Source: Sulfuricella sp.
Lineage (GTDB): Bacteria; Pseudomonadota; Gammaproteobacteria; Burkholderiales; Sulfuricellaceae
Length of the DNA: 64,000 nt
Assembly: GCA_028714315.1 (NCBI GenBank)
Contig: JAQTMN010000002.1
Span: 1 to 64,000, forward strand
Direction of reading: 5' to 3'
The stretch's first letter is position 1; each line of letters starts with the position of its first letter. Below the pieces are notes generated by a model. It worked only from the letters and a program-made list of their open reading frames with translations. It was not told where the DNA came from and did no database searches. A program made the position numbers and the translations under genes. Shown here piece after piece: positions 13,971-53,192 of this stretch.

Positions 13971-14007
13971 AATTCCCAAGCGTGTCCTTTCTGAAAAAGT
14001 GCAAAAC

Positions 14008-14373
14008 ATGAAAATATTCGTCTGGCTTGGCAACAGCGCCGCGCGGATCGCCCCGATTCCGCTGTTGGCGCTTGGCATGCTGCTTCCCTTTCCCGCCGGT
14101 GCGGAGGATTTGATCACGTTTCAGCTGACCGTGAAAAACGGCTATTTCCACCCTGAAACCATCGAGGTTCCCAGCGGCAGGAAATTCAAGATTGTCGTCA
14201 AGAACGAGGGCTCCGGCCCCGAGGAATTCGAAAGCATCGAGCTGCGCAAGGAAACCGTGCTCGCCCCCGGCGTCACTCGCGCCGTGGTGTTCGCGCCGAT
14301 GAAGCCCGGCACTTACAAGTTCTTCGGCGAGTTTCACCCGAACACCGCCAAGGGCCAGATCGTCGTCAAGTAG
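14008..14373 (+). CDS. Cupredoxin-domain periplasmic protein (FtrB-like)
   Basis: Signal peptide; FQLTVKNGYFHPETIEVPSGRKFKIVVKNEGSGPEEFESIELRKE. Confidence 0.88.
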   Translation: MKIFVWLGNSAARIAPIPLLALGMLLPFPAGAEDLITFQLTVKNGYFHPETIEVPSGRKFKIVVKNEGSGPEEFESIELRKETVLAPGVTRAVVFAPMKPGTYKFFGEFHPNTAKGQIVVK

Positions 14374-14383
14374 GAGAAAAATA

Positions 14384-15196
14384 GTGGGCAATACGCTGTT
14401 CATCGTCTGGCGCGAAAGCGTCGAGGGTATCCTGGTGGTGGGCATTCTCTACGCCTGGCTCAAGGCTCATCCCGAAGGCGCGCGCGGCATGCGCTACCTG
14501 TGGGGCGGCGTGGCCGGCGGCTTGGCGCTGGCGGGGCTGCTCGGGCTCGCCATGATGGGGGTTTACAGCAGCCTGGACGGCGAAGCGCTGGATTACTTTC
14601 AGCTCGGCATGATGCTGGTTGCCGCCGCGCTGATCACCCAGATGGTGTTCTGGATGCGCAAGCACGGCCGCGGCCTGAAGAAAGAACTCGAGAGCGGCCT
14701 GGAACGCGCGGCGGGCGACGCCAGCTGGACCGGGGTGGCGGTCATCGCCGCGCTCGCGGTCGGGCGCGAGGGCGCGGAAACCGTGATTTTCCTTTGGGGC
14801 ACCGGGATCGAGCAGCACGGCATGGCGTTCGCCCAATTCCTCGGCGCCGCCGCGCTGGGCTTCGCCCTCGCCCTCGTCACCTTCTGGCTGCTGGCGAACG
14901 GCGGGCGCTATATCTCGTGGAAGAATTTTTTCCGCATCAGCGAAACCCTGCTGCTGCTGCTCGCCGCCGGGATGCTGGTGGGCGGGGTGGAACGGATGAT
15001 CGGCTACGGCTGGCTGCCGGCGCTGGCCGACCCGGTGTGGGACAGCTCCTTCCTGCTCGACGACAGCGCCTCGGTCGGCAATCTGCTCGCCACCCTCACC
15101 GGCTACCGCGCCCACCCGGCGCTGACGCTGGTGCTGGTGTACGGCGCCTATTGGGCGCTGGTGCTGGGGTGGGCGAGGAAAGGCAAAAGCTTGTAG
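14384..15196 (+). CDS. FTR1-family iron permease (FtrC-like)
   Basis: Two FTR1 motifs (VWRESVEGILVVGIL and GREGAETVIFLWG); multiple TM segments. Confidence 0.92.
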   Translation: MGNTLFIVWRESVEGILVVGILYAWLKAHPEGARGMRYLWGGVAGGLALAGLLGLAMMGVYSSLDGEALDYFQLGMMLVAAALITQMVFWMRKHGRGLKKELESGLERAAGDASWTGVAVIAALAVGREGAETVIFLWGTGIEQHGMAFAQFLGAAALGFALALVTFWLLANGGRYISWKNFFRISETLLLLLAAGMLVGGVERMIGYGWLPALADPVWDSSFLLDDSASVGNLLATLTGYRAHPALTLVLVYGAYWALVLGWARKGKSL

Positions 15197-15244
15197 GTGC
15201 GAATTCATTTGCACATCCGGTTGGCCGAATAAATTCGGCCCTAC
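15193..15244. repeat. Dispersed hairpin repeat (gtaggtgcgaattcatt / ggccgaataaattcggccctac families)
   Basis: Self-complementary; related copies near 1760, 3608, 7761, 7869 and 53190. Confidence 0.7.
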
Positions 15245-15297
15245 ACCATCGACGTTTGTCCGCGTTCGGCGGTTAATCCGGAATTGAATTTACGATC

Positions 15298-16707
15298 ATG
15301 AAAATGGAACAACCGATAATTTTCCACCCCATGCTGCAGCGTCCGGCCACGGCCTTGCAGCGCGTCGGCGACGCCATGCGGCGCCATCGCCGGACCATCG
15401 TCGGCATCCAGTGGGCGGTGGTGGCGTTCTACCTGGCGCTGGTCACGGTGCCGGCGTTCCTGCCCTTGCCGGGGACCGGTTCCAGCGTGCTGAACAATCT
15501 CACCCTGCTCGCCCAGTTCATGTTCTGGGGCATCTGGTGGCCGTTCGTGATCATTTCCACTCTCACCCTGGGCCGGGTGTGGTGCGGCGTGTTCTGCCCG
15601 GAAGGCTCGCTCACCGAACTCGCCAGCCGCCACGGCCTGGGCCGCCCAGTGCCGCGCTGGCTGAAGTGGGGCGGCTGGCCGTTCGCCGCTTTCGTCATCA
15701 CCACCGTCTACGGCCAGCTGGTCAGCGTGTACGAATACCCCAAGGCGGTGCTGCTGGTGCTGGGCGGCTCCACCGTCGCCGCCGTCGCGGTCGGCTTCGT
15801 TTACGGCAAGGGCAAGCGCGTCTGGTGCCGCCACCTGTGCCCGGTTTCCGGCGTGTTCGCCCTCCTCTCCCGCCTCGCCCCGCTGCATTTCCGGGTCGAT
15901 CGCGAAAAATGGGACGTCGCTGCGCATTCCCACCTGGTGCCGGTGGACTGCGCTCCGCTGCTCGATATGCGGCGCATGAAAGGCGGCTCGCAATGCCACA
16001 TGTGCGGCCGTTGCAGCGGGCACCGCGAAGCGGTTGCGCTCACCTCGCGCCTGCCCGGCTCGGAGGTCGTCAACCTGAAACCCGCCGAAGCGGGCGCGTG
16101 GGAAGCGCGCCTCTTGGTGTTCGGCATCATCGGCACGGCGGTGGGCGCGTTCCAGTGGTCGTCCTCGCCCTGGTTCGTGGCGATCAAGACCGGTGTCGCC
16201 GAATGGCTGATCGACCACGATTCCTTCGCCCTGCTGCAGGACAACGCGCCGTGGTGGCTGCTCACCCATTACCCCGAAGCCAACGATGTGTTCACCTGGC
16301 TCGACGGCCTCGGCGTGGTCGCCTACATCGGCGCCATGGCCCTGGCGCTCGGCGGCTGGATCACCCTCTGGCTGCGCCTCGCCGGCGCCGCGCTGCCGGG
16401 CGGCGCCAAACAGAACGCGCGCTGGCTCGCCTACGCGCTGATCCCGATGGGCGGCCTGGGCGTGTTCCTCGGCCTGTCCTCGCTCACCGTCACCCTGCTC
16501 AAGGCGGAAGGCATCGTCATGCCCTGGCTGCCCGAAGTGCGCGGCGTGCTGCTGGGCCTGGCCGCGCTGTGGAGCATGGCGCTAGCCGCCGGCATGCTGC
16601 GCCGCCTGTCCTGTTCCCTGCCGCGCCGGCTGTTCGCCGCCCTGGCCGTGGCGGCCGGCGTGGCCGGCGTGATCGCGCCGTGGCTGTTCCTGTTTTATGT
16701 TTGGTAA
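15298..16707 (+). CDS. 4Fe-4S polyferredoxin membrane protein (FtrD / NapH-like)
   Basis: CGVFCPEGSLTE, CRHLCPVSGVFALLSR, CHMCGRCSGHREAV; multiple TM segments. Confidence 0.87.
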   Translation: MKMEQPIIFHPMLQRPATALQRVGDAMRRHRRTIVGIQWAVVAFYLALVTVPAFLPLPGTGSSVLNNLTLLAQFMFWGIWWPFVIISTLTLGRVWCGVFCPEGSLTELASRHGLGRPVPRWLKWGGWPFAAFVITTVYGQLVSVYEYPKAVLLVLGGSTVAAVAVGFVYGKGKRVWCRHLCPVSGVFALLSRLAPLHFRVDREKWDVAAHSHLVPVDCAPLLDMRRMKGGSQCHMCGRCSGHREAVALTSRLPGSEVVNLKPAEAGAWEARLLVFGIIGTAVGAFQWSSSPWFVAIKTGVAEWLIDHDSFALLQDNAPWWLLTHYPEANDVFTWLDGLGVVAYIGAMALALGGWITLWLRLAGAALPGGAKQNARWLAYALIPMGGLGVFLGLSSLTVTLLKAEGIVMPWLPEVRGVLLGLAALWSMALAAGMLRRLSCSLPRRLFAALAVAAGVAGVIAPWLFLFYVW

Positions 16708-44745: not shown

Positions 44746-45918
44746 ATGAAATTGCTCTCCCGTTTTATCAGTCCGATCATGTTCCTCCTGATTGCCGGCG
44801 CCGCCATGGCCGCCGATTTCAACCCGGCCATCGACGAAATCCTGCGGCGCGGCGATGCGGCCGCGGCCAGCTACGACCCGTCGAATCGGCTGGCGGCGGC
44901 GACTGAGTTTTCCTCGCTGTATTTCGATGTATTCGAAACTTCCGGCTTGGAGATGGATCTGGGCGTGCGCGATCCGGGCCTGAAAACCAACCTGGAAGTG
45001 CTGTTCGGCGCGCTCAACGCCAAAGCCATGCGCGGCGCGCCCGCCGACGACGTGCGCGCCGGCTGGTCGCGGGTTTCCGCCGCGCTGGGCGAGGCGCGCA
45101 AGCTGTATGGCGGGGAGCGCGTGGAGGGTTTCTGGAGCGTGTTCGTCAAATCCCTGCTCATCCTGCTGCGCGAGGGCGCCGAAGCGATGCTGGTGATCGG
45201 CGCGCTGGCGGCCTACCTGCGCCGCGCCGGGGCGGCCGACCGGGTGTGGGTGCTGTACGCCGGGGCGGGCATCGCCGTGCCGCTGTCCCTGCTCACCGGC
45301 TGGCTGCTGAACCGGAGCATGCGCCTGAACGGCATTTCGGCCGGCATGATCGAGGCCGTCTCCCTGCTGGCCGCCGCCGGCATACTGGTGTACATCAGCT
45401 TCTGGCTGTTCTCGAAACGGGAAGCGCGGCGCTGGCAAGCCTGGGTGGCGGGCCGGATGGAATGCGCGCTGTCCGGCGGATCGTTGCTGGCGCTGGGCGG
45501 CGCGGCGTGCTTGGCGGTGTACCGGGAAGGGGCCGAAACCGTGCTGTTCTACGCCGCACTGGCCGCCTCGGCCCCCGGCCACGAGACGGCGCTGGCATCC
45601 GGCATCGCGATGGCGGCCGTAGCGCTGGCGGCGCTGTATTTCGGCCTGCGCCGGTTCGCCATGCGGATTCCGCTGCGTGCTTTCTTCAGCGCGACCGCCG
45701 CGCTGCTGTATGCCATGGCGGTGATTTTCGCCGGCCAGGCGCTGATCGAACTCCAGGCGACGGGATATCTGCCCAGCCACTACCTGCCGGGCTTCCCCAG
45801 CATCGCCTGGGCCGGCGTGGCGCCGACCTTGCAAGGGCTGGGCACGCAGGGCATGATGCTGATGTTGCCGTCGGCGGTCTGGCTGTGGACGCGCCGCGCC
45901 CGGCCGACGGCGCGATGA
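44746..45918 (+). CDS. FTR1-family iron permease (second copy)
   Basis: Signal peptide + periplasmic domain, motifs LLREGAEAMLVIGAL and VYREGAETVLFYAAL. Confidence 0.9.
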   Translation: MKLLSRFISPIMFLLIAGAAMAADFNPAIDEILRRGDAAAASYDPSNRLAAATEFSSLYFDVFETSGLEMDLGVRDPGLKTNLEVLFGALNAKAMRGAPADDVRAGWSRVSAALGEARKLYGGERVEGFWSVFVKSLLILLREGAEAMLVIGALAAYLRRAGAADRVWVLYAGAGIAVPLSLLTGWLLNRSMRLNGISAGMIEAVSLLAAAGILVYISFWLFSKREARRWQAWVAGRMECALSGGSLLALGGAACLAVYREGAETVLFYAALAASAPGHETALASGIAMAAVALAALYFGLRRFAMRIPLRAFFSATAALLYAMAVIFAGQALIELQATGYLPSHYLPGFPSIAWAGVAPTLQGLGTQGMMLMLPSAVWLWTRRARPTAR

Positions 45919-45977
45919 CGGAAATTGAAAAACAGTCGGTCACGGGGAATACGGAGTTTCAGGGAAAAAACGAAACC

Positions 45978-46322
45978 ATGGACACGCACCAGATCATTCG
46001 GCAATTCGCGCCGCGCGCCGCGATCGCCCACCACATTCCGGGACGGATCCGCATCCGGCTCGACCTCAGCCTGGCCGAAATCTCGCGCCTGCGCGAATTC
46101 GACCCGGAACGCCTGCGCGGCGCGCTGACCACTATCCGCGGCGTGCGCGACGTGCGCATCAACGGGCTGGCGCGTTCCTGCACGGTGGAATACGACGCCG
46201 GCGTGATCCCCTCCGCCGCCTGGGAAGACCTCCTCGCCGACCGCGACACGCCCGCGGCGAAGGTGCTCCTGGATATTCTGCGGGAAAGACATGAGACATT
46301 GCCGCAAAAAACCGCATTTTAA
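45978..46322 (+). CDS. HMA-like small protein with HHIPGRIRIRL motif (FezC-like candidate)
   Basis: AIAHHIPGRIRIRLDLS..LTTIRGVRDVRINGLARSCTVEYDAGVI; HMA-like fold pattern without CxxC. Confidence 0.65.
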   Translation: MDTHQIIRQFAPRAAIAHHIPGRIRIRLDLSLAEISRLREFDPERLRGALTTIRGVRDVRINGLARSCTVEYDAGVIPSAAWEDLLADRDTPAAKVLLDILRERHETLPQKTAF

Positions 46323-46466
46323 CCACGGGGAACACGGGGCACACGGGAGCTGATTTGGGATTTTAAATTTAACCCCATTCACCCAATGCGCGATATGAGA
46401 AAACACACAACACTTTGATTTTACCCCCCGTGTTCCCCGTGAACCCCGTGGTCACCCGCTTTTACA
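46313..46466 (+). repeat. Dispersed inverted-repeat element, copy G
   Basis: ttaaccacggggaacacggggcacacggg ... ccccgtgttccccgtgaaccccgtggt. Confidence 0.85.
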
Positions 46467-46507
46467 AGTTTTCAACTGCCGTTTTTTTACGTGAAAAGGA
46501 GAATGCC

Positions 46508-46948
46508 ATGTTCCCCCTGTTCCCATTCGTTGCCGGCCTCGTCGCCGGCATTTTGGCCACGAGATCGCTGCGCGGCGGGAAGGTGCGCGGCGGCCTGGAA
46601 TCGATCCAGGAAAAGCTGCGCGACGCCACGGTCTCCGGACTGGGCAGCGTCGCAAGCGCGTCGGCCGCCATGAAGCAGCGGCTGGAGCCGGAAGCGAAAG
46701 CGGCGAATGCCGAGCCGGCGGTGGCGGCGCCTGCCGCGAAGAAACCGGCACGCGGCAGACCGCCTGCCGCCGCCACGAGGAAGAAGGCGGCTTCCGTGAA
46801 ACAGCCGCCGGAAGTGAAGGCGCCGGTGCAGGAAGCGGCCAGCGCCGTGGCGCCCGCCGCGAAGAAGCCGCGCGCCAAATCGCCCGCCGCCGCCACGAGG
46901 AAGAAGAAGGCGGCCTCCCCCGATAACACCCCCGGAGGTTTGGCATGA
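46508..46948 (+). CDS. Hypothetical: hydrophobic N-terminus plus Lys/Ala/Pro-rich histone H1-like tail
   Basis: MFPLFPFVAGLVAGILATRSLRGGKV..KKPARGRPPAAATRKKAASVKQPPEV..KKPRAKSPAAATRKKKAAS. Confidence 0.65.
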   Translation: MFPLFPFVAGLVAGILATRSLRGGKVRGGLESIQEKLRDATVSGLGSVASASAAMKQRLEPEAKAANAEPAVAAPAAKKPARGRPPAAATRKKAASVKQPPEVKAPVQEAASAVAPAAKKPRAKSPAAATRKKKAASPDNTPGGLA

Positions 46949-47256
46949 AAAAAAGACGCCCCCGCGCGTCGCGCAAACTCGCCGGCGCCGCCGATTATTT
47001 TGTGCGCGGCTTCGTCGCCACCGGCCTGCTGGCGGCTTTGCAGGACCCGTCGAGCCGCGGCGCCCCCCATGTGCGCGCCGTCCTGCGGCACGCCCTGCAG
47101 GGCGGCGCCGCGCTGGCGGCGGGCGGCATCGCCGCCGACGCGCTGCGCGAAGGCTCGCCGGCGGGCGCGTTGACGGCGGTCGGCGCCGGCGTGGCCGCAC
47201 TGGCGATGATCGCGCATTTTACGCATGAGACCCATGAGCCTAAAAACCTCATTTGA
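46945..47256 (+). CDS. Small hypothetical membrane protein
   Basis: ADYFVRGFVATGLLAALQD, GGAALAAGGIAADALREGSPAGALTAVGAGVAALAMIAHF; ATGA overlap with preceding gene. Confidence 0.6.
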   Translation: MKKRRPRASRKLAGAADYFVRGFVATGLLAALQDPSSRGAPHVRAVLRHALQGGAALAAGGIAADALREGSPAGALTAVGAGVAALAMIAHFTHETHEPKNLI

Positions 47257-47402
47257 ACCACGGGGAACACGGGGCGCACGGGGAACGGCGCGGGATTTTA
47301 AATTTAACCTTCGCCACCCAACGGGTAATATGGGCAAAAACGCGCAACCAATTGGTTTTACCCCGTATTCCCCGTGAGCCCCGTGGTTAACTGCGTTTTA
47401 CA
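47239..47402 (+). repeat. Dispersed inverted-repeat element, copy H
   Basis: aaaacctcatttgaaccacggggaacacggggcgcacgg ... ccccgtgagccccgtggttaactgcgttttaca. Confidence 0.88.
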
Positions 47403-47444
47403 GCATGAGACTTTACCCGGCATTCCACACCAAGGAGAGATGGC

Positions 47445-47759
47445 ATGAGCAAGAAAAAATCCCGCAAGAAATCGAATCGCGCCGAGGCAAAACTCGCCCG
47501 GCAAATGGAAGACACGCCTGCCGGCCTGCTCGGCAATCTGCAGGGCATGCTGGGCTCGCGCCGCCGCCAGCAGTTCATTCTCGGCGCCGTGCTCGGCGCG
47601 GCGGCGGTGTATGTGCTGAGCGACGAAAAACTGCGCGCCAAACTGATCCGCACCGGCGTCGGCCTGTATTCCGGCATCGCCGGCGGCTTCGAGGAAATGA
47701 AGGAGCAAATGGCCGACATCCAGGCCGAAGTCGAGGCCGAAAGACAGAGCGCCGCATGA
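47445..47759 (+). CDS. Small YtxH-like membrane-associated protein
   Basis: MSKKKSRKKSNRAEAKLARQ..FILGAVLGAAAVYVLSDEKLRAKLIRTGVGLYSGIAGGFEEMKEQMADIQAEVE; overlaps P-type ATPase start. Confidence 0.6.
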   Translation: MSKKKSRKKSNRAEAKLARQMEDTPAGLLGNLQGMLGSRRRQQFILGAVLGAAAVYVLSDEKLRAKLIRTGVGLYSGIAGGFEEMKEQMADIQAEVEAERQSAA

Positions 47760-50086
47760 GCGCATCGCCGCTATTCTCCCATCTCGAGCCGGTGCATCGC
47801 CTTGCCGGGCGGACGCGCTTCCGTTTCCGCTGCGAGCGCGGACGCCCGCTCGATGCCAAGCTGGCGGCGCGCGCCGTGGAAAACCTGGCCGGCGTGAATC
47901 GCGTCCGTTTCAATTCCGCCGCATGTTCGCTGGTGGTGGAGCACGACCCCGCGCTGACCGATGCGGAACGCCTGCGGGCGGGCATGCTGGCCCTGGAATC
48001 CGCGCCTGCCGCCGAGGCGCGACACCCGACCGGACGCAGGGAACTGGCGGCGGTCGCAGCCAGCGGCGCCTTGCTGCTGTCCTCGAGCAGCCTGCCTGCC
48101 GCGCTGCAATTGCCCGCCACCCTGGCCGCGGCGGCGCCGATCCTGGGCGAGGCGCTCGACGACCTGCGCCGGGAAGGGATCACCTCCCACGTGCTTGAAG
48201 CCCTGGCGGTGGGCATTTCGGCTGCGCGCGGCGATTTTACCGCCGCCAACACCACCGTCTTCATGCTGGCGCTGGGTGAATATCTGGAGCACAGCATCGC
48301 CCGGCGCTCCGACGATCTGCTGAAAAGCCTGCTGCGTCCGGCCACCGGGCTGGTGTGGGTGGAGCGCGACGGCGTGGAATGCCAGATCGACGCCGGCGAG
48401 GTGGTGGTCGGCGACACGGTCATCGTCGGCGCGGGCGCCACCATCCCGGTGGACGGCACCGTGCTGGGCGGAGAGGCGATGGTCAACGAAGCATCCATGA
48501 CCGGCGAAAGCCTGGCGGTCGGGCGCTCGCGCGGCGACCCCGCGCTGTCCGGCACCGTGGTCGAGGAAGGACGCCTGCGCATCTACGCGGAGCATGTCGG
48601 CCGGCACACGGCGACCGCGCGCATCGCCGATTATGTCGAGCACTCGCTCGCCTCCAAGAGCGCCGCGCAGCTCGATGCCTCCCGCCTCGCCGACCGGCTG
48701 GTGCCCGTCGTCCTCGGGCTGGCCGGCGGCGCCTTCGCCTTGACCGGCGACTGGCGGCGCGCCGCCGCCGTGCTGCAGGCGGATTATTCCTGCTCGCTCA
48801 AGCTGGCCACGCCGGTGGCCTTCAAGTCCGCCATGCACCGCGCCGGCAAGGCCGGCATCCTGGTCAAGGGGGCGGACGTGCTGGAACGGCTCGCCCAGGC
48901 CGACACCTTCGTGTTCGACAAGACCGGCACGCTGACCGCCGGCACCCTGGAAGTCACCGACTCGATCGCCTTCGATCCCGCTTTCGATGCCGACGGCCTG
49001 ATCTGCCTGGCCGCCTCGGTGGAAGAACATTATTTCCACCCGCTCGCGCTGGCCGTGGTCGAAGCCGCAAGAATGCGCTGCGGGCGGCACTTCGACCATA
49101 AGGAGGTCGAATTCATCGCCGCCCACGGGGTGGCCAGCGTCATCGACGGCAAGCGCGTGGTGGTGGGTTCCCGCCATTTCGTCGAAGAGGACGAGGGCAT
49201 TGCCGTCGCGCCGCACCGCAAGCGCATCGACGCGCTCTACCGGCAGGGGCGCACCCTGCTCTATATCGGCTACGGCGGCAGCCTGCTCGGCGTCATCGCC
49301 CTCCGGGACCGGCTGCGCGAAGCCAGCGCCGGCACCATTGCCCGCCTGCGCGAGCTGGGGGTGAAACGCATCCTGATGCTGACCGGCGACCACCACGACC
49401 GCGCCGCTGAGCTGGCGCAGCAACTCGGCCTGGACGGCTTCCACGCCGAGCTGCTGCCCGAGCAGAAGGCGGACATCGTGCGCCGCCTCAGCGGCGAAGG
49501 CGCCCGCATCGCCTTCGTCGGCGACGGCATCAACGACGCGCCGGCGCTGGCGGGCGCCCACGTCGGCATCGCCATGCAAAGAGGCGCGGACATCGCCCGG
49601 CTCACCTCCGACATCGCCCTGCTGGAAGACGACATCGCCCTGATTGCCGATGCCAGGGCGCTGGCGATCGCGACGCTGAAAAAGGTGGACGGCAATTTCC
49701 GCCTGACCGTCGGCATCAACACCGCCATTCTCGCCGCCGCCGCGTCGGGCCGCCTGGCGCCCGCCACCGCCTCCATCCTGCACAACGGCAGCACCATCGC
49801 CATCCTCATCAGGGCTCTGCTCGGCGGCGGCAAGGCGGGAACGCCGCGCCGCCCCGCCGGAGCCCCGCCCGCCGCGCCGCCGACCCCCGCGGCCACCCCC
49901 TCCCGCCATCCCTCGCGGCGCGTGCGCATCAATCGCTACGCCAAGCGCGGAATGCTGGCCACCCTGCCCCTGTCGCTCGCGCTCGCGGCGATGGGAAAAA
50001 AGCGCTGGCACGCCGTCAGCGGCGGCGTGTTTCTCGCCGCCCTCGGCGCGCATCTGGCGGCCCACCGCCGCCACCTGTTGCGGTAG
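47756..50086 (+). CDS. Heavy-metal P1B-type ATPase with SCS (not CPC) membrane motif (FezB-like candidate)
   Basis: FDKTGTLTAGTLEV, MTGES, EEHYFHPLA, GDGINDAPALAGAHVGIAM; metal-path motif YSCSLKLATP; N-terminal HRLAGRTRFRF. Confidence 0.9.
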   Translation: MSASPLFSHLEPVHRLAGRTRFRFRCERGRPLDAKLAARAVENLAGVNRVRFNSAACSLVVEHDPALTDAERLRAGMLALESAPAAEARHPTGRRELAAVAASGALLLSSSSLPAALQLPATLAAAAPILGEALDDLRREGITSHVLEALAVGISAARGDFTAANTTVFMLALGEYLEHSIARRSDDLLKSLLRPATGLVWVERDGVECQIDAGEVVVGDTVIVGAGATIPVDGTVLGGEAMVNEASMTGESLAVGRSRGDPALSGTVVEEGRLRIYAEHVGRHTATARIADYVEHSLASKSAAQLDASRLADRLVPVVLGLAGGAFALTGDWRRAAAVLQADYSCSLKLATPVAFKSAMHRAGKAGILVKGADVLERLAQADTFVFDKTGTLTAGTLEVTDSIAFDPAFDADGLICLAASVEEHYFHPLALAVVEAARMRCGRHFDHKEVEFIAAHGVASVIDGKRVVVGSRHFVEEDEGIAVAPHRKRIDALYRQGRTLLYIGYGGSLLGVIALRDRLREASAGTIARLRELGVKRILMLTGDHHDRAAELAQQLGLDGFHAELLPEQKADIVRRLSGEGARIAFVGDGINDAPALAGAHVGIAMQRGADIARLTSDIALLEDDIALIADARALAIATLKKVDGNFRLTVGINTAILAAAASGRLAPATASILHNGSTIAILIRALLGGGKAGTPRRPAGAPPAAPPTPAATPSRHPSRRVRINRYAKRGMLATLPLSLALAAMGKKRWHAVSGGVFLAALGAHLAAHRRHLLR

Positions 50087-50127: not shown

Positions 50128-50291
50128 CCTAAAAACCTCATTTGAACCACGGGGAACACGGGGCGCACGGGGCGCACGGGGAACGGCACGGGATTTTGAA
50201 TTTGGCCTTGTCACCCAATGGTGATGTGGGCAAAAACACGCAGCAAACTGATTTTTCCCCGTGAGCCCCGTGGTTAGCTGCGTTTTATAGG
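50128..50291 (+). repeat. Dispersed inverted-repeat element, copy I (internal duplication of gcgcacgggg)
   Basis: aaaacctcatttgaaccacggggaacacggggcgcacggggcgcacggggaacgg ... ccccgtgagccccgtggttagctgcgttttata. Confidence 0.85.
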
Positions 50292-50341
50292 TAACCGCTT
50301 TTTTCAGTTTCAATATCGCATTGCAAATTCCGTTGACTTCA

Positions 50342-50364
50342 CTAATGAGAATGATTATCATTAG
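50342..50364. promoter_or_regulatory. Strong putative Fur box
   Basis: CTAATGagaatgattatCATTAG; close to consensus GATAATGATAATCATTATC. Confidence 0.75.
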
Positions 50365-50457
50365 CCAGAAGTCGAATAATTCCAGCCAGCACCGATGACC
50401 TCCGGTCGGACGGTAGCCAGCCATCCCGGTTGACTTGTTAGTTAAGGAGGTTTTCAC

Positions 50458-51911: not shown

Positions 51912-53192
51912 ATGTGCATAGCGAACAAGATAAACGCGAGCGGCGGGTCTTACCAAGCGCCATCCAGCCTGTTCGCCGCCATACCGCCGGCGGCGGCTCA
52001 AACCGCGCCGCGGCGGCGCAAGCTGTGGGAAATCCACACCCGCTACCATTGTCCCATCATCGGCACCTGCCTCACCGTGGACGAGCTGCGCCGGCTGGCG
52101 CGCCGCGCCGATCTGGAGGATTGGGATACCGGTTCGGACTACGAACTGCACAGCGCCGCCGTGGGGCTGGCGCGGGACCGCAACGCGCTATCCGAGCTGG
52201 TGCAGAAGGAAATGGAGCGCAAGTTCGCCGCGCTGGTGCAGCGCTTCGCCCGCGCCAGGTCGGATGACGACATCCTGCCGCTGTGGCGCGCGGCGCTGGC
52301 GCGGGGGGAAATCGCCGCCGCGCTGTGGGCGGTGATGAGCCACGGCCGTGCCAGCGACAAGCTGATGCATGTCGCCTACGAAGAGGTGCACATGATCTCC
52401 CACCAGGTCGGCACGGCAAGCCGCGCCGACCTGCGCAAGCTGGCCCGGCTTGCCGAGGACAATGCCGATCTGGCGGCGCGCCTGTCCCGGCAGCAGGACA
52501 ACTTCGCCCGCCAGCTGGCGGAAAAAGAGGCGCTGATCCACGCCCTGAACGAGCGCCTGGCGGAGGCGCTCGGCACCGAACGGCGCCTGCTCGATGCCGG
52601 CGAGAGCCGGCGGGAAGCCGCCGGAAGCGATGAAACTGCGCGGCAGGCCCAGCGCATCGCCGAGCTGGAACGACGCCTGGAGGCCGAGTCCGCGCGCGCC
52701 GAGCAGGCCGGGAAAAGCGGACTGGAAGCGACGGCGCGCGCCGACCGGCTCGAACGGGTGGCGGCGGACCTGCGGCAAGACCTCGACGCCGCCGAGGAAA
52801 CCCTGGGCGGTCTGTTGATGCCCGCTTCCTGCGGCGGCTGCGACGAAGGGCAGGATGGGCGCTGCGCCGGCCCGGACTTCACCGGACGCTGCGTGCTGTG
52901 CGTGGGCGGGCGCACCGGGCTCGCCGAGCACTACCGCCAGCTGGTCGAGCGCAGCAACGGGCGCTTCGTCCACCACGACGGCGGCCTGGAAGACAGCCGG
53001 AAGCGGCTGCCCGCCATGCTCGCCGCCGCCGACGCGGTGATCTGCCCGGCCGACAACGTCAGCCACGCCGCCTACTACGCGGTCAAGCGCCTGTGCAAAC
53101 AGTACGGCAAGCCCTGCGTGCTGCTCAACAATTCCGGACTTTCCTCCTTCGCGCGCGGACTCGCGGCGCTGGACAGCGAGTCGGACAGGTAG
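51912..53192 (+). CDS. DUF2325 domain protein
   Basis: C-terminal VLCVGGRTGLAEHYRQLVERSNGRFVHHDGGLEDSRKRLPAMLAAADAVICPADNVSHAAYYAVKRLCKQYGKPCVLLNNSGLSSFARGL. Confidence 0.88.
   Translation: MCIANKINASGGSYQAPSSLFAAIPPAAAQTAPRRRKLWEIHTRYHCPIIGTCLTVDELRRLARRADLEDWDTGSDYELHSAAVGLARDRNALSELVQKEMERKFAALVQRFARARSDDDILPLWRAALARGEIAAALWAVMSHGRASDKLMHVAYEEVHMISHQVGTASRADLRKLARLAEDNADLAARLSRQQDNFARQLAEKEALIHALNERLAEALGTERRLLDAGESRREAAGSDETARQAQRIAELERRLEAESARAEQAGKSGLEATARADRLERVAADLRQDLDAAEETLGGLLMPASCGGCDEGQDGRCAGPDFTGRCVLCVGGRTGLAEHYRQLVERSNGRFVHHDGGLEDSRKRLPAMLAAADAVICPADNVSHAAYYAVKRLCKQYGKPCVLLNNSGLSSFARGLAALDSESDR

Follow-up and report, generated by a model that had tools for sequence, protein, structure and literature searches.

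Ferrosomes are small membrane-bound iron stores. The ferrosomes of Rhodopseudomonas palustris CGA009 are made from six fez genes (PMC12016538), and in C. difficile both FezA and FezB are required (PMC12574912). FezC is a DUF4405-like protein with haem b bound when purified, and may modulate the redox state of iron for transport (PMC10979944, PMC11334425). The locus described here occupies positions 44746-50086 of a 64,000-nucleotide stretch (the window) from the draft genome of a Sulfuricella sp. (148 contigs, 85% complete). Like the fez operons of R. palustris CGA009 (RPA2333-2338) and Shewanella putrefaciens, it brings together a P1B ATPase and small membrane and HMA_2 proteins in one operon. 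Likened to these two by gene content, it differs in that the haem half of FezC is fused to FezB, the HMA_2 half being missing, and in that the operon is led by an FTR1 gene. Taken together, the gene set, the gene order, the protein families, the phylogeny and the fusion, all directly observed, make it very probable that this is a ferrosome-type (fez) operon, consisting of genes for FTR1, HMA_2, KAP, TM and YtxH/DUF5132 proteins and a FezB that carries the FezC cytochrome module. The operon type itself is known; what is new here is that FezC is fused to FezB and that FTR1 is coupled to the operon. A fez-type reading had already been put forward in the preliminary description, and it is supported by the clade of the ATPase and by the synteny of the small genes, while ferrosome formation is a prediction from these.

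All six ORFs lie collinear on the + strand, in the places and with the identities first assigned to them (FTR1, an HMA-like protein, a TM protein with a Lys/Ala/Pro-rich tail, a small TM protein, a YtxH-like protein and a P1B ATPase). The FTR1-family permease (44746-45918, 390 aa) is followed by the HMA_2-like protein (45915-46322), the KAP family protein with an N-terminal TM segment and Lys/Ala/Pro-rich tail (46508-46948, profile match 1e-25), the small membrane protein of the TMs family (46945-47256, profile match 3e-31, with no Pfam family above its cut-off), the YtxH/DUF5132-like membrane protein, YTX (47445-47759), and the ATPase, the body of which spans 47756-49840. YTX barely exceeds the DUF5132 cut-off (25.1 bits against 25), and the 14 control genomes gave no DUF5132 match. 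Stop and start codons overlap as ATGA at 45915, 46945 and 47756, and so the FTR1-HMA, KAP-TMs and YTX-ATPase pairs look translationally coupled. The permease, originally described as adjoining the cluster, thus overlaps the first fez gene, and the HMA-like gene, placed at 45978-46322 in that description, keeps its end but probably begins at 45915, with 45978 an internal start. A dispersed repeat of about 134 bp (ACCACGGGGAACACGGGG...) with inverted ends has 35 matches genome-wide. Two copies interrupt the operon between gene pairs, one between the HMA and KAP genes (46323-46452, 77% identity to the reference copy) and one found by the repeat search of the genome at 47258-47391; a third, from the same search, lies downstream of the ATPase (50157-50276).

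When a family-specific fragment was scanned against named genomes, the best 80 loci came from Rhodocyclaceae, Azospirillum, Magnetospirillum, Aeromonas, Thauera, Rubrivivax and others, and none of them from a proven ferrosome former. In most of these 80 loci the HMA_2, KAP, TM and YtxH genes stand beside the ATPase in the same order, and the KAP homologue detected with custom profiles holds the equivalent position in most homologous loci. With these profiles each small partner was found in 80-85 of 85 loci, although the profiles for HMA, FezC and FezB also pick up one another's targets through the HMA_2-like domain that they have in common. A complete set most often runs FezC-HMA-KAP-TMs-YTX-FezB (six genes, e.g. 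in Magnetospirillum and Aeromonas), and a plasmid of Azospirillum brasilense carries six genes annotated as an HMA2 protein, a cation transporter, two hypothetical proteins, a YtxH protein and a P-type ATPase. The small proteins, earlier regarded as new accessory components, are therefore usual parts of the operon type, each recurring beside the ATPase in most of the best 80 loci and on the Azospirillum plasmid. YTX equivalents on plasmids are annotated as YtxH domain proteins. Further fez-type operons or ATPases were seen on plasmids of Azospirillum, Arcobacter, Cereibacter (conjugative) and Vibrio (L129-L132), none annotated as ferrosome genes; the plasmid records thus yielded homologues but not a proven ferrosome system. 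An additional fez-operon protein of about 250 aa without a Pfam match, which is not in the window, occurs at L092:4484-5269 and in 26 of the best 80 loci; an Arcobacter plasmid gene of like size and position is annotated DUF2202. Closer to home, none of 11 same-genus genomes has the ATPase at E<=1e-100; across the order, 7 of 399 genomes, counting the window's own, have it at E<=1e-150. This indicates a patchy distribution that could stem from transfer or from repeated loss.

The C-terminus of the ATPase carries, in frame, a FezC-type haem module that passed unremarked in the preliminary description (about 49916-50083, or 49916-50086 with the end of the gene). It is a two-helix module with the pattern H-x13-H-x3-H, and is 68% identical over 57 residues (E 7e-17) to the FezC of a related locus, L016. 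In L016 and L013 (Rhodocyclaceae/Rhodocyclales MAGs), which have sister ATPases and the same gene order as the window, fezC is a separate gene right after fezB, and in L016 its start coincides with the fezB stop. Similarity of the window to L016 fezB extends to about 49806, and from 49916 it is the final 56 codons of fezC that match; the junction measures about 110 bp against about 320 in L016, and a Pro/Ala-rich linker (49841-49915) takes the place of the ATPase stop codon and of the HMA_2 half of FezC. Most simply, a deletion that removed both of these created the fusion. Joining the genes could do away with the HMA_2 half because FezB has an HMA_2-like N-terminus of its own. HMA_2 and haem modules are separable, as in two more distant genomes (L145 and L146) they are encoded by two consecutive ORFs. 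No such fusion was seen in the other FezB tails of about 90 related loci.

The module resembles FezC/DUF4405 cytochromes in its two-helix form and in two conserved His residues 14 positions apart, but differs from them in being an ATPase C-terminal domain behind a Pro/Ala linker, with no HMA_2 domain of its own. It scores 18.1 bits against DUF4405, below the cut-off of 26.7 just as the FezCs of relatives do (of three scanned, two reach 18.6-18.7 bits); in the same three homologues HMA_2 is matched at 33-40 bits in two and slightly below the cut-off in the third. Among 39 FezCs and the window tail, the first His is present in 40/40 and the second, 14 residues on, in 39/40, counts that are partly by construction, the FezCs having been picked by a loose LH/WH...H pattern. 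Relative to L016 the dN/dS of the module is about 0.34 (0.24/0.69), a rough value from 56 codons, and judged by this ratio the fused module is under purifying selection. The ATPase C-terminus is the sole FezC-type module found in the genome assembly: a query with L016 FezC matched this tail and, weakly, the HMA protein, and no separate fezC. As the genome is a draft, a separate fezC could be missing from it, and in principle an assembly fault could have produced the fusion.

Two rival explanations bear on these features. An operon derived from fez that has lost organelle making, and whose role is now confined to iron export or buffering at the cytoplasmic membrane, would fit the lack of a separate fezC, the double interruption by dispersed repeats and the failure to find the ATPase in any of the 11 same-genus genomes; we consider it unlikely, if still deserving of attention, given that all other parts are intact, that the stop/start overlaps are kept in three gene pairs and that the FezC module appears to be selectively maintained. 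Much less probable is an assembly or frameshift artefact behind the fusion itself. Its occurrence only once among about 90 loci could be read this way, but no stop breaks the frame in linker or module, each of the two fused parts retains high identity to one of the neighbouring genes in the sister lineage, the join sits within a contig of 96 kb, the dN/dS of the module is low, and an exact in-frame join would hardly be produced by error.

The ATPase scores 466 bits against the heavy-metal P-type ATPase model TIGR01525 (cut-off 346). Its body has an N-terminal HMA_2-like domain with GRTRFR, the DKTGT motif and a GSRHFVEEDEG signature, and its AlphaFold model shows eight TM helices. It shares its overall P1B fold and catalytic motifs with CopA, ZntA/CadA and SPC-type P1B ATPases but differs from them in the metal-site motif of TM6, in an N-terminal domain without CxxC, and in phylogeny. 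TM6 reads DYSCSLKLATP, without a CPC or SPC motif, whereas other P1B ATPases of the same and related genomes have CPC or SPC at this place; in the family alignment (pattern DYxCxLKLxTP) C346, K349, T352 and P353 are invariant. A grouping of the ATPase with Cu/Zn/Cd exporters, which by the preliminary description would have refuted the fez reading, is not seen in the tree: in 50 sequences, it and 28 homologues form one 29-member clade (SH-aLRT 99) that leaves out CopA, FixI-type, SPC-type and CadA sequences, including paralogues from its own genome. Its nearest neighbours are L013 and L016, with 72% identity to the latter. An ordinary Cu, Zn/Cd or Co resistance P1B exporter beside unrelated small genes, to which the general P1B matches and the PDB fold matches to CopA and ZntA might point, is thus very improbable in view of the separate clade, the missing CPC/SPC motif and the conserved operon of non-resistance genes.

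The HMA-like protein falls under the Pfam HMA_2 cut-off (21.6 bits against 30), yet shares an H-x3-GRxR motif with the ATPase N-terminus. This similarity, noted at the outset, is real: H18, G22, R23 and R25 are invariant in an alignment of 20 HMA proteins, all of 26 ATPases have R19 and R21, with H14 almost invariant in them, and GRxR is present in 39 of 40 rows of the FezC alignment. HxxxGRxR is a family feature. The AlphaFold model of the HMA protein (pLDDT 86) has the strand and helix order of an HMA domain, similar to that of the ATPase N-terminus, and finds weak HMA-domain fold matches in the PDB (best E 0.02). Confidence in the FezB model is low for the actuator region and for the tail. 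With HMA matches so weak and the tail so poorly modeled, neither model carries weight for the fused module. A sequence search of solved structures with the ATPase returned other P-type ATPases and no FezB.

On the reading as a ferrosome-type operon, FTR1 would import iron through the cytoplasmic membrane and the small membrane proteins would give shape to a membrane compartment, into the lumen of which FezB, as a non-CPC P1B ATPase, would pump Fe(II). The fused haem module may then move electrons across the compartment membrane and so set the redox state of iron as it enters or leaves. The HMA_2-like domains are Arg-rich and have no CxxC, and their ligands may be anionic partners instead of soft metals. 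As Rosetta-stone evidence, the fusion suggests that in relatives with separate genes, too, FezB works together with FezC as a single unit. Whether the fusion is functional, so that the pump would carry its own haem, electron transfer across the ferrosome membrane would be tied mechanically to iron transport and a FezB-FezC complex would be general in ferrosome formers, seems to us evenly balanced on what the sequences offer. A natural fusion of the two suggests that pump and haem module work together, and offers one polypeptide to purify and assay; if it is functional, the HMA_2 half of FezC would be dispensable in this setting. The locus also extends fez-type operons to the Sulfuricella sp. 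lineage and, through the overlap of stop and start codons, links an FTR1 permease to the operon.

This permease matches Pfam FTR1 at 72.5 bits (4.5e-20; cut-off 25.3), and both the FTR1 fold and two REGxE motifs are present (REGAE at residues 142 and 260). Against the EfeU equivalog NF041756 it reaches 102.9 bits, below the 255-bit cut-off, and is therefore an FTR1-family member rather than EfeU proper. It was rejected as the counterpart of the FTR1 in L016, to which it shows only distant kinship (E 0.04). The true counterpart is the FTR1 at 14384 (52%). It belongs to a ferrous iron uptake module of ftr type at 13999-16707, made up of a cupredoxin-like protein, FTR1 (14384-15196) and a Fer4_5 membrane protein (15298-16707), of which FTR1 and Fer4_5 are 52-53% identical to those of L016. 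There the ftr module is directly upstream of fez, while 28 kb separate its relative in the window from the operon. An early count of 4 loci with FTR1 had pooled the two FTR1 subfamilies. FeoA or FeoB lies <=7 kb from fez in 17-19 of the best 80 named loci. No Fur-type site was found near the fez gene starts in the window, and a Fur-box-like site scoring >=14 upstream of fez was present in just 4 of 76 other loci. The only strong Fur-box-like site (15-16/19 matched; 0.6 expected at 13) is at 50341-50365, downstream of fezB and ahead of a run of ABM, EAL, hemP and DUF2325 genes. The DUF2325 protein (51912-53192) has equivalents near fez in 7 of the best 80 loci (L012, L015, L020, L025, L051, L066 and L078), and another is found near the fez operon of the Arcobacter plasmid (L130).
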